Shown here piece by piece: positions 3,627 to 34,976 of a stretch of 44,947 nucleotides of DNA; positions within the stretch are counted from its first letter, which is position 1, and every line of letters begins with the position of its first letter. The notes under the pieces were generated by a model. That model had not been told where the DNA came from. It made no database searches and saw only the letters and a list, made by a program, of their open reading frames with translations. Origin of the DNA: Oscillospiraceae bacterium. Its GTDB lineage: Bacteria > Bacillota > Clostridia > Oscillospirales > Oscillospiraceae. The stretch lies in assembly GCA_902765595.1 (NCBI GenBank), contig CACXAQ010000014.1, positions 1 to 44,947 on the forward strand. Reading direction: 5' to 3'. The position numbers and the translations under genes are program-made.

Positions 3627-4106
3627 ATGCGTAAACTGATCGCCTATTTTTCCGCCAGCGGCAGCACCGAGAAGCTGGCACAGACCCTGGCCCGCGCTGC
3701 TGACGCGGCCTTGTATGAAATCAAGCCCACGGTTCCCTATGCGCGCAAAGATCTGAACTGGATGGACAAGAAGGCCCGCAGCACCGTGGAGATGCAGGAC
3801 CCGAACTGCCGTCCCCCGCTGGCCGATACCGCCGCCCCTGTTGCGGAGGCCGACGTGATCTTCCTGGGCTTCCCTATCTGGTGGTACCGGGAGCCCAGCA
3901 TCATCGACAGCTTCCTGGACGCCTATGACCTCACGGGCAAGACCGTGGTCCCCTTCTTCACCTCCGGCGGCAGCCAGCTCGGGGAAGGTCAGGGACGCAT
4001 CGAGAAGCTGGCAAAGGGCGCGAAGGTCCTTCCCGGCAAGCGCTTCTCGGCCAGAGCTTCCGAGAACGAGCTCAGGAGCTGGATCGACGGCCTGGGGCTT
4101 CAATAA
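3627..4106 (+). CDS. Flavodoxin
   Basis: The 159-residue flavodoxin has strand RKLIAYFSASGSTEKLA (FMN-phosphate loop SASGST), the GFPIWWYREPS loop and a third FMN-contact strand VVPFFTSGGS. The length is typical of short-chain flavodoxins, and it lacks the lipoprotein signal of its paralogue at 1189. It would carry electrons for the flavin and quinone enzymes encoded upstream. RBS AAAGGAG precedes the ATG by a good distance. It is the last gene of the operon begun at 626. A decayed copy of a similar C-terminus is seen at 28644-28772. Confidence 0.9.
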   Translation: MRKLIAYFSASGSTEKLAQTLARAADAALYEIKPTVPYARKDLNWMDKKARSTVEMQDPNCRPPLADTAAPVAEADVIFLGFPIWWYREPSIIDSFLDAYDLTGKTVVPFFTSGGSQLGEGQGRIEKLAKGAKVLPGKRFSARASENELRSWIDGLGLQ

Positions 4107-4122
4107 GCGGGGATCGCCGGGC

Positions 4123-4162
4123 CGAAAAGCTTTTTCGCTATTTGCCATCATAGAATCATTAT
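4123..4162 (+). repeat. Remnant of modular hairpin repeat (right end)
   Basis: These 40 bp match 39338-39377 at 38 positions, i.e. the right-hand hairpin and terminal inverted repeat of the element copies at 34973-35141 and 39172-39379. The remaining hairpins are missing. It lies in the 147-bp gap between the flavodoxin and the aldo/keto reductase. Confidence 0.75.
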
Positions 4163-4253
4163 GGCATGGATGCTTCCCTGCACCGGCCGGCGAAAAACGG
4201 CGTTGAAAACCGTAGCAGAATAGGATAAACTACCTAAAGCAGGAGGAACTGAC

Positions 4254-5393
4254 ATGAAGAACCTGGGTTTTGGCATGATGCGGCTTCCGGTGCTGTCCGG
4301 GCCGACGGATTTTGATTACGAGCAGCTCAACCGGATGGTGGATGCGTTTCTGGACGCCGGGTACACTTACTTCGACACCAGCTTTGTCTACCATAACGGG
4401 AAAAGCGAGGAGGCCACCCGAAAGGCGCTGGTGGAACGGCACCCGAGGGAGAGCTTTACGGTCGCGACGAAGTTCCCGACCTTCATGCTGGTGCCTGAAG
4501 AGAAGATCGAATCCGTCTTCCAGAGCCAGCTGGACAATCTGGGTGTGGACTATATCGACTATTATCTGCTCCATAACATTCAGAACGTCTACTACGACGG
4601 CTATGACGGAAACGGCGGCATTGTGAAGACGACCCACCTCTTTGACCACGCGAAAAAGTGGAAAGAAAACGGGAAGATCCGCCATCTGGGCATCTCCTTC
4701 CACTCCTCCGCGAAGCTGCTGGATCGGGTGCTGACGGAGCATCCGGAGATCGAGTTCGTTCAGATCGCGCTCAACCCCATCGACTGGGACAGCGAGCTGG
4801 TGCAGGCCGGCCCCTGCTATGAGGTGATCCGGAAGCACGGCCGCAAGGTCGTCATCATGGAAGCCGTAAAGGGCGGCGGACTTGCCAGGCTGCCGGAGGA
4901 CGCGGAAGCCGTTTTGAAGGCTGTCCACCCGGACTGGAGCATCGCCTCCTGGTCTGTGCGGTTCTGCCTGGAGAAGGAGGACGTGATCGCGGTCCTCTCC
5001 GGTATGAGCACGCTGGAGCAGGTCCTTGATAACACAAAGACCGCCAATGAAGCGCAGCCGTTCTCCGAAGAGGAGAAGAAGGCGCTTGCGGAGGCTATGA
5101 GGATCTATCGGGAGAGCGCGCCCATCAAGCAGAGCGAGATCGACCGGTACAAGGGCCTCCTGTACCACGGCGTGCCCGTCAGCGCGATCCTGCAGGCCTA
5201 CAGCATCTGCCAGATCCAGCCGGACCCCGGTTTCTCTGACGACAACAACTATCTGAAAAACGCCATCGCAGAGGTCGAGCACATCGATTTTCACAAGGGT
5301 TTGGGGAAGCAGGCCGTCATCACGGCTGACGGCGCAGACATCACGGAAGCGGTGGAAAAGGCCGTGGGGTGGCTCACGGAGAACAGCTTCTGA
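4254..5393 (+). CDS. Aldo/keto reductase
   Basis: This 379-residue AKR-superfamily TIM barrel reduces aldehydes or ketones with NAD(P)H. The catalytic tetrad is visible: Asp41 and Tyr46 in FDTSFVYHNGKSEE, Lys73 in VATKFPT and His107 in YLLHNI. A C-terminal extension (about 290-379) replaces the ferredoxin-like Cys cluster found in many clostridial homologues; no such Cys motif is present here. RBS GGAGGAA precedes ATG 4254. The gene is preceded by a degenerate repeat rather than a clear promoter and may be read from its own start or from the redox operon. The substrate is unknown. Confidence 0.9.
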   Translation: MKNLGFGMMRLPVLSGPTDFDYEQLNRMVDAFLDAGYTYFDTSFVYHNGKSEEATRKALVERHPRESFTVATKFPTFMLVPEEKIESVFQSQLDNLGVDYIDYYLLHNIQNVYYDGYDGNGGIVKTTHLFDHAKKWKENGKIRHLGISFHSSAKLLDRVLTEHPEIEFVQIALNPIDWDSELVQAGPCYEVIRKHGRKVVIMEAVKGGGLARLPEDAEAVLKAVHPDWSIASWSVRFCLEKEDVIAVLSGMSTLEQVLDNTKTANEAQPFSEEEKKALAEAMRIYRESAPIKQSEIDRYKGLLYHGVPVSAILQAYSICQIQPDPGFSDDNNYLKNAIAEVEHIDFHKGLGKQAVITADGADITEAVEKAVGWLTENSF

Positions 5394-33187: not shown

Positions 33188-33622
33188 TCAGCCTCCCAGC
33201 AGGCACAGGATCAGCCCGTAAATCACGCTGCTGCCCACGCCGAAGACGATCACCGGCCCCGCGATGACAAACATCTTGGCCGCCATGCCGGTCACAAGGC
33301 CCTCGGTCTTGAACTCCAGGGCAGGCGCCGCCACGGAATTGGCAAAGCCGGTGATGGGCACCAGGGTGCCGGCGCCGGCGAACTTGGCAATGTCGTCGTA
33401 GATGCCGAGACCCGTCAGCGCCGCGCCGAGGAAGACCAGGGTGATGGACTCGGCCGTGGCCGCATCCTGCTGCTCCAGGCCCAGCCCGCCGTACAGATTC
33501 AGCAGCATCTCCCCCAGGCAGCAGATCAGCCCGCCGACCACGAAGGCCCACAGGCAGTTTCTCCCCACATGGGAGCGGGGCATGTGCCGTCCCGCGTACT
33601 TCCGATATTCTTCATTGGTCAT
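33188..33622 (-). CDS. spoVAC: Stage V sporulation protein AC
   Basis: A 144-residue membrane protein matching SpoVAC, a mechanosensitive-type channel subunit of the SpoVA complex that moves calcium-dipicolinate in forespores and germinating spores. Distinctive stretches are LWAFVVGGLICCLGEML, LGAALTGLGIYDDIAKFAGA, TLVPITGFANSVAAPALEFK and EGLVTGMAAKMFVIAGPVIV. The hydrophilic N-terminus before the first segment argues for AC over AE. spoVAD and spoVAE, its usual neighbours, are not here; only a 45-aa gene follows. It marks the organism as a spore former. Its promoter would be recognised by a forespore sigma factor; I could not identify one. Confidence 0.9.
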   Translation of the reverse strand: MTNEEYRKYAGRHMPRSHVGRNCLWAFVVGGLICCLGEMLLNLYGGLGLEQQDAATAESITLVFLGAALTGLGIYDDIAKFAGAGTLVPITGFANSVAAPALEFKTEGLVTGMAAKMFVIAGPVIVFGVGSSVIYGLILCLLGG

Positions 33623-33709
33623 GTTTTCAGCCCGTCCCTTCGATCCGCGCGCAACCGGAGCTCCCGCGCTTTTGTGACTATTCTTTTCGCAATTGGCGTA
33701 AAATATTCC

Positions 33710-33738
33710 TTGACTTTCCCTGTACCATGCATTATAAT
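33710..33738 (+). promoter_or_regulatory. Promoter of the tRNA-Ser gene
   Basis: -35 TTGACT (33710-33715), 17-bp spacer and consensus -10 TATAAT (33733-33738), about 42 bp upstream of the tRNA 5' end. Confidence 0.85.
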
Positions 33739-33779
33739 GTCCAGGCTGACAAGTTCACAGCCAGTTTCTTGAGCAACAC

Positions 33780-33871
33780 GGAGATGTCGCGTAGTTGGTC
33801 GAGCGCGCACGATTGGAAATCGTGTAAGGGTCAAAAGCTCTTCGAGAGTTCGAATCTCTCCATCTCCGCCA
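33780..33871 (+). tRNA. tRNA-Ser, anticodon GGA
   Basis: Acceptor arms GGAGATG (33780-33786) and CATCTCC (33861-33867) pair, followed by G and an encoded CCA. The anticodon arm CACGA-TTGGAAA-TCGTG gives anticodon GGA (codons UCC/UCU). A long variable arm and the T arm GAGAG-TTCGAAT-CTCTC complete a class II tRNA. Confidence 0.95.
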
Positions 33872-33875
33872 AAAG

Positions 33876-33905
33876 AAAAGCACCCCATTCGGGGTGCTTT
33901 TTCTT
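33876..33905 (+). terminator. Terminator of tRNA-Ser
   Basis: An AAAAGCACCCC / GGGGTGCTTTT hairpin with a 4-nt loop directly after the tRNA. Similar A-flanked hairpins follow each of the two repeat units downstream. Confidence 0.9.
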
Positions 33906-33913
33906 TTGGCTCC

Positions 33914-34075
33914 GATGGGGAGATTCGAATGTGTAATCGAAACTGCCGGTGGCAGTTTCATCGTCCAGTGCGCACACTGGACGATTCCTCTATTTTTTCG
34001 CACGGGTTCACGGCCACATTCGGTGCACACTGCTCCCCTGCGAAAAAATGCATGCGAATCTCTCCATCTCCGCCA
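33914..34075 (+). repeat. tRNA-tailed structured repeat, unit 1
   Basis: A 14-bp closing stem pairs 33914-33927 with 34055-34068 (13 Watson-Crick plus one G-U). It encloses hairpins at 33939-33959 (9 bp), 33960-33985 (11 bp, CGCA loop) and 33993-34048 (10 bp, T6/A6 arms, large loop). The right end, 34055-34075, is identical to the last 21 nt of the tRNA-Ser gene including CCA. It may be a transcribed RNA or a mobile unit; no protein is credible here. Confidence 0.7.
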
Positions 34076-34077
34076 TG

Positions 34078-34112
34078 AAAAAGAACCCCCACCACAGGTG
34101 GGGGTTCTTTTT
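34078..34112 (+). terminator. Terminator after repeat unit 1
   Basis: A 16-bp perfect stem (34078-34093 with 34097-34112), an ACA loop and a T5 tail. Confidence 0.85.
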
Positions 34113-34123
34113 CATAAGTGCTT

Positions 34124-34280
34124 GGAGAGATTCGAATGTGTAGTCGCACATGCCAGTGGCATGTGCATGAGCCAGTGCGAACACTGGCGAATACATCTAT
34201 TTTTTCGCACAGGTTCACGGCCACATTCGGTGCACCCGCTCCCCTGCGAAAAAATGCACGCGAATCTCTCCATCTCCGCC
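34124..34280 (+). repeat. tRNA-tailed structured repeat, unit 2
   Basis: It has the same architecture as unit 1, about 206 bp further on. The closing stem is 34124-34134 with 34261-34271 (11 bp perfect). Hairpins lie at 34146-34166 (9 bp), 34171-34188 (7 bp, CGAA loop) and 34200-34254 (10 bp). Relative to unit 1 the first hairpin carries three paired (compensatory) changes, while the long-hairpin loop is nearly unchanged. It ends with 20 nt identical to the tRNA-Ser 3' end. Confidence 0.7.
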
Positions 34281-34286
34281 TATATG

Positions 34287-34325
34287 AAAAACCTCTTTTG
34301 CCCGGGCAGGGCAAAAGAGGTTTTT
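34287..34325 (+). terminator. Terminator after repeat unit 2
   Basis: A 17-bp perfect stem (34287-34303 with 34309-34325), a 5-nt loop and a T5 end. Confidence 0.85.
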
Positions 34326-34326
34326 G

Positions 34327-34355
34327 TTGTTTGCTTCGGTGGGGTATGGTATAAT
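34327..34355 (+). promoter_or_regulatory. Promoter of luxS
   Basis: -35 TTGTTT (34327-34332), 17-bp spacer and -10 TATAAT (34350-34355) with TGG directly upstream (extended -10). The leader before luxS is about 90 nt. Confidence 0.7.
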
Positions 34356-34451
34356 CGATAAAGCAAATCAGAACTCATACGGCAAAGCATATCGGTTTAT
34401 TCAGAAGCAAAAAGCACTTCAAAGAAGCATTGACATAAAAGGAGAAACAAA

Positions 34452-34976
34452 ATGGAATTAATTCAGAGCTTTTCGGTAGACCATACGCGCATTGTGCCCG
34501 GCATGTTCCTGAGCAGGGTCGATTCTTTGGGCGATCATTCGGTTTCGACCTATGACATCCGGCTGAAAAGGCCGAACCGGGAGCCGGTCATTGACGTGGC
34601 GGCCATGCATTCGCTTGAGCATATAATTGCAACTTTCCTTCGCAATGACCCGGATTGGAAAGATGAGGTCATTTACTGGGGACCTATGGGCTGTCTTACC
34701 GGCTTTTATCTCATCCTCAAGGGCAAGCGCGCCTCGCGGGAGCTGTATGAGCTCCTGCTGCGGGCCTTCAAGTCCGTAGAAGCTGCGCAGGAGGTGCCCG
34801 GCGCGGCCCCTGTAAACTGCGGACACTACCTCATGCACAACCTGGAAATGGCAAAGTGGTATGCAAAGGAATTTGTGGCTTATCTTGAAGCAAACGCCGA
34901 AAACAGTCAGATCTTTGAATATCCCAAGGCAGAGCGGCTCGTAACCGAAGACGGGCAGCATTTTTACGATTCATAA
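34452..34976 (+). CDS. luxS: S-ribosylhomocysteine lyase LuxS
   Basis: A 174-residue LuxS, the metalloenzyme that splits S-ribosylhomocysteine into homocysteine and DPD, the precursor of autoinducer-2, in the activated methyl cycle. Metal ligands are His53 and His57 of MHSLEH and Cys123 of NCGHY; the catalytic Cys81 lies in GPMGCLTGFY. The length is normal for the family. AAAGGAG precedes ATG 34452. It is monocistronic, and its stop codon lies within the left end of the hairpin repeat that follows, so the repeat abuts the gene without spacer. Confidence 0.96.
   Translation: MELIQSFSVDHTRIVPGMFLSRVDSLGDHSVSTYDIRLKRPNREPVIDVAAMHSLEHIIATFLRNDPDWKDEVIYWGPMGCLTGFYLILKGKRASRELYELLLRAFKSVEAAQEVPGAAPVNCGHYLMHNLEMAKWYAKEFVAYLEANAENSQIFEYPKAERLVTEDGQHFYDS

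Follow-up and report, generated by a model that had tools for sequence, protein, structure and literature searches.

Tandem structured units behind tRNA genes of Oscillospiraceae as candidate members of a tRNA-anchored, integron-like cassette family

Two structured units behind tRNA-Ser(GGA)

The stretch of DNA analysed here (the window, 44,947 nt) is contig CACXAQ010000014.1 of an Oscillospiraceae bacterium draft genome (GCA_902765595.1; 61 contigs, 84% complete). It carries tRNA-Ser(GGA) followed by two tandem units of about 205 bp, as the initial annotation had observed. The neighbours of the array are spoVAC and luxS, the latter being the next gene, at 34452 (Pfam LuxS). The features of the locus are as follows.

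33710..33738, plus strand: promoter-like site TTGACT-17-TATAAT, 5' of the tRNA (consensus scan only, 11/12 matches)
33780..33871, plus strand: tRNA-Ser(GGA), with its 21-nt T-loop/T-stem tail at 33851-33871, the presumed attI-like attachment site
33875..33902, plus strand: terminator hairpin 3' of the tRNA (pattern scan); under the cassette model it would be the 5' part of cassette 1
33914..33927, plus strand: unit 1, 5' arm (X'), 13/14 the reverse complement of the tRNA tail
33939..33959, plus strand: unit 1, hairpin 1 (predicted fold, family alignment)
33960..33985, plus strand: unit 1, hairpin 2 (predicted fold, family alignment)
33991..34051, plus strand: unit 1, hairpin 3, with a long loop common to both Ser units (predicted fold)
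34055..34075, plus strand: unit 1, 3' arm (X), a copy of the tRNA tail including CCA, 21/21 identical
34079..34113, plus strand: middle terminator hairpin, 16 bp, loop ACA (read from the sequence; absent from the pattern-scan list); under the cassette model it would be the 5' part of cassette 2
34124..34134, plus strand: unit 2, 5' arm (X') (predicted fold)
34146..34166, plus strand: unit 2, hairpin 1 (predicted fold, family alignment)
34171..34188, plus strand: unit 2, hairpin 2 (predicted fold, family alignment)
34199..34256, plus strand: unit 2, hairpin 3 (predicted fold)
34261..34281, plus strand: unit 2, 3' arm, a copy of the tRNA tail and the array end, 20/21 identical, with the final A of CCA changed to T
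34287..34325, plus strand: terminator hairpin 3' of unit 2 (pattern scan)
33894-34361, plus strand; 33619-33888, 33755-34030 and 33958-34314, minus strand: four mechanical ORFs, taken to be spurious

The claim that each unit ends in the 3' end of the tRNA held for the last 21 nt (21/21 and 20/21), and terminators stand after the tRNA and after each unit, two of them found by the scan and the middle one by direct reading. With their terminators the two units are 86% alike by column. Closing stems of 14 and 11 bp had been described; the first is 14 bp, and the second measures 12 bp. Hairpin 1 differs between the units by three fully compensated pairs, and the near-invariance reported for the hairpin 3 loop is seen in a 24-nt stretch identical in both, both as previously described.

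The four mechanical ORFs that overlap the T-arm of the tRNA and the units (one of them of 155 aa, on the plus strand) gave no Pfam match, and the Pfam scan recognised no gene inside the units of the window. The earlier statement that no integrase or protein gene is present is correct for this locus and wrong for the family, some copies of which carry genes. No Rfam family was matched by the units at gathering score; at a permissive threshold only sub-threshold hits appeared, besides the tRNA.

Fold and distribution of the family

Folded as RNA, unit 1 reaches -78.6 kcal/mol (z -8.3) and unit 2 reaches -71.0 kcal/mol (z -6.1), with none of 200 shuffles as good in either case. Further copies in the same genome stand behind tRNA-Ala(CGC) (two), Lys(TTT) (three), Glu(TTC), Gly(CCC), Thr(GGT) and Arg(ACG), behind the 3' part of tRNA-Ser(TGA) and behind the tmRNA gene; one more, on contig C36, has the tail of tRNA-Ser(GCT), with no tRNA within the stretch examined. 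Their outer stems are written in the tail of the respective tRNA, apart from the Thr copy, whose tail has decayed. For a copy on contig C26, an assignment to tRNA-SeC was rejected: its tail is that of tRNA-Ser(TGA), which is whole in L086. Three own-genome units contain a separate element of about 120 bp (GGAATTGCGGCTTTGCGC...GCAAGGTGGAAT) inside the hairpin 1 loop, namely Lys units 2 and 3 (L054/L045, G000:C21) and L055 (G000:C36:13690-13846), and the ends of this element bear a short GGTGGAAT-like repeat.

Covariance modelling, the check that the initial annotation had proposed, was carried out with three models, which recovered relatives across the genus, family, order and class. The first model (R1), made from ten aligned own-genome copies (alignment A2), matched the own genome 24 times at E<=1, with 14 of these matches below 1e-15. 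Of 102 genus genomes 56 were positive, as were 15 of 200 genomes of the family (10 of 106 genera). Over a set of 40 genomes, 12 were positive, the own genome included, and none of the 15 in that set that come from other families of the order. Larger sets than this were searched with Infernal's stricter filters. A second model (R2; 20 copies of nine genera, alignment A5) was positive in 39 of 394 genomes of the order (26 of 169 genera), and a third (R3), built from 18 copies of a second, shorter subfamily of about 103 nt (alignment A7), in 21 of 391 genomes of the class (16 of 223 genera), each of these two sets being a sample of a larger group. This second subfamily is represented in the own genome too, by a copy behind tRNA-Tyr. 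At another locus (L346, G504:C19), three tandem subfamily-2 units without terminators, joined by a short linker, lie between tRNA-Ser(TGA) and tRNA-Ser(GCT), and the second of these tRNAs truncates a fourth.

The exact hairpin 2 pattern, searched over named genome contigs, occurred in 31 stretches, all titled MAG or uncultured bacterium and named as Oscillospiraceae, Ruminococcaceae, Clostridia, Clostridiales or Eubacteriales; several are named from ruminant rumen, omasum, cecum or colon. The distribution of the units is patchy, even inside the genus, and since most genomes are incomplete drafts, in which arrays may have been collapsed or cut, absence is weak evidence. The family is real, large and without an Rfam match, and no earlier description of it was found in the literature searched (open-licence PMC papers only).

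Covariation in the family is extensive. Two-sided compensated changes are found at 24 of the 43 predicted pairs in the alignment of ten own-genome copies (A2) and at 30 of 34 pairs in that of 20 copies (A5). In the latter, 95.4% of cells pair, versus 72.6% in shuffles, no slid register comes near, and none of 500 shuffles reaches any of five measures. Among 144 copies, hairpins 1 and 2 together show 23 G.T and 17 A.C against 2119 Watson-Crick pairs. The basal pair of hairpin 3 is T.G in 87 copies, and its other 13 pairs comprise 26 G.T, 13 A.C and 1452 Watson-Crick; the closing stem has 90 G.T versus 46 A.C, mostly in the outer five pairs. Wobble is thus rare overall, with a mild plus-strand excess. 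At one locus seen in three related genomes (L325, L103 and L116), hairpin 1 has been swapped as a block in one genome and the terminator hairpin in another, the remainder being nearly identical. Because of these block swaps, part of the covariation is whole-hairpin exchange, a warning that compensated changes by themselves are no proof of a functional RNA.

These observations bear on a reading as a family of small structured RNAs, produced by processing of tRNA transcripts and spread by duplication, in which X' would hold the tail copy off the tRNA or act on the tRNA. The rtT repeats of E. coli tyrT reportedly give such an RNA processed from tRNA transcripts. The strong fold and the covariation agree with this reading, as do the three terminator-less units of L346, which are probably co-transcribed between their two tRNA-Ser genes, and the slightly better folding of the top strand (in DNA folding, more stable in 72 of 119 cases, with the bottom strand more stable in 43). 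The initial annotation had seen selection on RNA structure, and the excess of G.T over A.C in hairpin 3 and the closing stem keeps part of that argument alive; it loses force with the whole-hairpin replacement between close relatives, seen at one locus, and with hairpins 1 and 2, which are nearly without wobble and show little strand preference. The swap and the rare wobble weaken the ordinary small-RNA reading. Terminator-like hairpins, moreover, precede the inspected units, the consensus scan found no promoter-like site between the terminator and unit 1, gene cargo is present and Rfam gives no match. We consider a small-RNA family an improbable account of the units.

Host tRNA tails, exact junctions and cargo

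The units are bound to tRNA genes. After removal of overlapping and identical matches, a first set of 110 contained 76 with a tRNA upstream within 1.5 kb, every one on the same strand, and 34 without a tRNA in the stretch examined. A larger set of 146 gave 99 with a same-strand upstream tRNA (69 of them within 75 nt), one with an opposite-strand tRNA only and 46 with none in the stretch examined; the tRNA-less matches include contig ends and four loci with tmRNA directly upstream. The order-wide search placed 24 of 25 new loci behind a same-strand tRNA or tmRNA (read from coordinates), and the class-wide search found a same-strand tRNA within 220 nt at 19 of 24 loci, upstream and downstream pooled. 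The nearest tRNAs of the larger set have 21 anticodons and 40 different tails; the sole Thr(TGT) case, L121, mismatches its tail, so that about 20 anticodons are used. Copies with the matching tail behind other tRNAs, another expectation of the initial annotation, were thus found at about 20 anticodons and at tmRNA.

The closing stem matches the tail of its particular host tRNA. X' agrees with the tail of its own tRNA at 11.15 of 14 positions, compared with 8.25 for other tails and 8.62 for the top of 500 permutations, and the 3' end of the unit agrees with its own tail at 18.6 of 21 positions, compared with 12.1 for others. In alignments A2 and A5 the 3' box is mostly C(G/A)ANTC. Tail positions 1-13 stay at 0.95-1.00, and positions 14-21 fall to 0.59 in last units (n=63) and 0.72 in internal units (n=25); since units with fewer than 11/13 tail matches were dropped, only the decay of nt 14-21 is independent. 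Among the best 50 nearest-neighbour comparisons of unit cores, every pair with at least 93% identity has its tRNA type in common, whether within a genome or between two species, and the closest pair at different tRNAs reaches 92%. Overall, the nearest neighbour of 69 of the 119 cores is in a different genome and at a different or unassigned tRNA, versus 108 expected (tRNA names being tail-based, with 24 of the 119 lacking an assignment), which makes tRNA-bound descent a trend and no rule.

Comparison of related genomes places gain or loss of cassettes exactly at the tail CCA in several genome pairs. L160 and L108 are 90% alike over 714 nt of downstream flank, and the 64 nt directly after the tRNA CCA in L160 stand at 98% behind the CCA of the unit in L178, which by length and coordinates is on the same contig as L108; L178/L108 have a gene cassette between tRNA and unit. 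At tRNA-Arg(CCT), G084 and G095 each have one cassette more than G065, and beyond it, after a perfect 21-nt tail in both, comes the post-tRNA sequence of G065 (91% over 196 nt in G084, 94% over 127 nt in G095); the two extra cassettes differ in terminators and hairpins. The displaced flank in these cases is of a type that recurs at several loci, so the L160/L108 and tRNA-Arg(CCT) cases are not fully independent of this repeat: a repeat beginning (G)CGTCAGA often stands directly after the tail at different tRNAs (L103, L116, L139, L190, L318, L108 and L160). L096 and L099 match at 99% from the tRNA across the terminator to the CCA of the unit; beyond it they diverge, one into a gene-bearing stretch and the other into a different sequence. 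In L405/L199 (80% over 132 nt) and L428/L256 (84% over 49 nt), a similar cassette start occupies the first position after the tRNA in one genome and the second position in the other, and the same tRNA-Ser is without a unit in L410 and with one in L412, with flanks 87% and 86% alike. Most other rows of the junction comparison set unit against unit and are indistinguishable from common descent. A shared terminator precedes different units in G007 and G084, which one clean insertion at the tRNA does not account for.

At the locus of the window itself, tRNA-Ser(GGA) was observed in 19 of 30 retrieved spoVAC/tRNA-Ser loci. Of those 19, 10 have a unit within the sequence examined, and so, further on, does at least one of the remaining nine (G086). 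We also tried luxS as an empty-site marker and rejected it in favour of spoVAC, since only G000 and G068 among 19 luxS loci had tRNA-Ser(GGA) in the stretch examined.

The interval from the previous tail was measured in 106 of 195 units; it is at most 70 nt in 86 of these and more than 300 nt in 10. Most measured cassettes hold no gene, only a terminator, and an empty unit is about 170-205 bp. Gene cargo was studied in 15 intervals chosen by eye, which are no census. It comprises TIGR02436 four-helix-bundle proteins, present in two species at tRNA-Arg(ACG) (L104, L085), GNAT acetyltransferases (L199, L085), HTH proteins (L072, L121), one protein resembling alpha/beta hydrolases (L077) and products that match no family (L108, L198, L189 and L096, the last in an interval that runs off the contig end). 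In G086 (L115) the unit stands about 2.1 kb from tRNA-Ser, and a DNA methylase is encoded in between. The tmRNA array of the own genome has two genes between a unit and a decayed one, the first of the sigma-70 family and the other with no match in Pfam. The L194 interval gave no convincing ORF and L202 antisense ORFs only; in L098 the automated choice was an antisense ORF, with a small sense ORF visible by eye. L311 was left out because its interval ends in a weak match of 23.8 bits. The cargo proteins scanned include no integrase. Several gene cassettes (among L072, L199, L108, L413 and L428) start with a terminator hairpin whose loop is TTTTGATAGA or TTTTRACAAR, and some end in spaced GCACCCCCT or TGAACCCCCT repeats before the last terminator.

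The tails and junctions also speak to the idea that the units are by-products of duplication, with the tRNA end and terminator duplicated in tandem, palindromes formed by replication template switching, and neither enzyme nor function involved. Near-perfect hairpins swapped whole at one locus would fit such an origin, as would L339, L342 and L350, where the unit lies between duplicates of both tail and terminator. Hairpin motifs and layout are, however, conserved across nine genera of the family, and the second subfamily across several families; gene cargo occurs with exact CCA junctions, and array ends keep tail nt 1-13 (also the filter) while nt 14-21 decay. We regard an origin as duplication by-products as very unlikely.

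A proposed tRNA-anchored cassette model and its relation to known systems

We favour the reading that the units are empty members of a tRNA-anchored, integron-like mobile cassette family, with a probability of roughly 60%. That they are cassettes gained and lost site-specifically is the firmer part of this reading and seems quite probable. Of the three possibilities put forward in the initial annotation, the non-autonomous integrating unit that uses the tRNA end is the one supported, by the matching tails, the gain and loss at the CCA and the gene-carrying copies. A cassette would comprise a tRNA tail, a terminator, optional gene(s) and a folded site, in which X, the T-loop/T-stem tail of the tRNA, pairs with X' in a closing stem around two or three near-perfect hairpins. 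In the genome pairs with gain or loss at the CCA, the tRNA stays whole and its former 3' flank lies behind the unit. Strand exchange is proposed to occur in or beside the T-loop (CGAATC), with an ordinary T-arm acting as attI, the unit folded as a single strand acting as attC, and a tyrosine recombinase encoded elsewhere in the cell as the putative enzyme. The stem of the site would then be coded by the tRNA itself, its outer stem being the T-arm's own 3' half. A T-arm as target and a stem from its 3' half would account for the tail and X' that follow the tRNA, for the intact tRNA and for the tandem, one-way arrays. That the folded single strand is the substrate is the less secure part, to which we give slightly less than even odds.

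Candidate enzymes are a host Xer-type recombinase or an enzyme brought by other elements. The integron integrase TIGR02249 was over cut-off in none of the 102 genomes of the genus, and many of its matches split at model positions ~181/237, like Xer-like proteins. PF00589 gave 11 matches in the own genome and 68 in nine genomes, part of which were retrieved for clustering. Among the 44 recombinase-like ORFs clustered from this part, no group was unit-specific, and the only group present in every unit-positive genome was also present in all three unit-negative ones. The unit-negative genomes G048 and G100 have two PF00589 matches each, both in groups common with unit-positive genomes. In G251 (L235, G251:C38), a 291-aa tyrosine recombinase (3747-4622, minus strand) lies about 100 bp behind an array of two units that is degenerate and has the tail of none of the tRNAs found by ARAGORN, possibly a platform-like arrangement. 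It was not accepted as the enzyme of the units, as its relatives in G095 have no unit nearby.

Genomic islands commonly integrate at the T-stem of tRNA or tmRNA genes via tyrosine integrases, restoring the gene, and they too use tmRNA and occur in tandem arrays (PMC4383910). Could the units be ordinary non-autonomous islands of this kind, each a double-stranded attP arm for which single-strand folding is irrelevant, moved in trans by phage- or ICE-type integrases with the T-loop as attB? The regenerated tDNA with a displaced 3' fragment, which is the mark of such islands (PMC4383910), is present, and the own genome has PF00589 matches; in G251, reading by eye shows, just before an array, a 3' tRNA fragment that includes the 5' strand of its own T-stem, of the sort left by other islands. 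A double-stranded attP, however, gives no reason for an inverted X' of 11-14 nt that follows the tail of each tRNA. The scanned cargo proteins include no integrase, and the recombinase groups of unit-negative G048 and G100, in the part retrieved, are shared with unit-positive genomes. We regard this explanation as unlikely, though it is the strongest of the alternatives to a tRNA-anchored cassette family.

Comparison with known systems locates the cassette family between two of them. As in tDNA islands of the Islander class with T-stem crossover (PMC4383910), there is a whole tRNA with a displaced 3' fragment, use of tmRNA and tandem arrays; the units differ in being about 170-205 bp when empty, in carrying an inverted tail copy that follows each tRNA and in lacking an integrase gene inside the element, in the units of the window and in the scanned cargo. 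Integrons insert cassettes via a folded attC (PMC8618304). Like integrons and CALIN, which are arrays of attC sites with no integrase, the family has tandem arrays in which some members carry small genes, several with functions unassigned, a foldable site in each member whose structure is kept while its sequence varies, and an array content that differs among relatives. It differs in that the units are anchored at many tRNA and tmRNA genes with no integron integrase over cut-off, have a branched fold of two or three hairpins, and are mostly empty where measured. The classical attC has an R box, GTTRRRY, and a favoured bottom strand; the units have neither, their outer stem being the tail of the host tRNA and the bottom strand showing no preference. 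Because one defining feature of integrons and one of tDNA islands is absent, we file the units as neither.

Two families of short repeats are also comparable. The rtT repeats, which we take to be Rfam RF00391, are tandem repeats behind a tRNA, each with the last ~19 nt of that tRNA; to our knowledge they occur at one tRNA only, with no X' arm and no terminator per unit. The units resemble them as tandem repeats behind a tRNA that end in its 3' part, and differ in being at many tRNAs, in having an X' arm and a terminator per unit, and in leaving RF00391 unmatched. REP/REPIN sequences are short palindromic intergenic repeats, recognised as hairpins and moved by Y1 transposases; the units are short palindromic intergenic repeats as well, but are tRNA-bound and matched to their flank, and we know of no REP/REPIN that is either. 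On the best reading, the units work most like an integron cassette array with a tRNA gene as the platform.

Several observations count against a cassette family: no recombinase is tied to the units, most measured cassettes are empty, the bottom strand is unfavoured, the G007/G084 terminator is shared, the displaced CGTCAGA-type flank is found again at several loci, and G.T is in excess in hairpin 3 and the closing stem. Nor did searches give a match in viral contigs (one exact pattern) or in plasmids and phages (one unit, blastn).

It is conceivable, though we hold this only tentatively, that the cassettes represent a third kind of gene capture beside integrons and tDNA islands, in which any tRNA or tmRNA gene of Clostridia may serve as a platform, crossover takes place in the universal T-loop, and tRNA identity is the address of the cassette. 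If so, the tRNA genes of a major group of gut and rumen bacteria would be gene-capture platforms with many sites per genome, which Rfam and integrase-centred searches would miss. There would be a starting list of cassette genes (acetyltransferases, a methylase, regulators and unknowns), together with the question of the recombinase, and the preference for the tRNA T-arm as an integration site would be linked with the origin of the folded single strand used by integrons.
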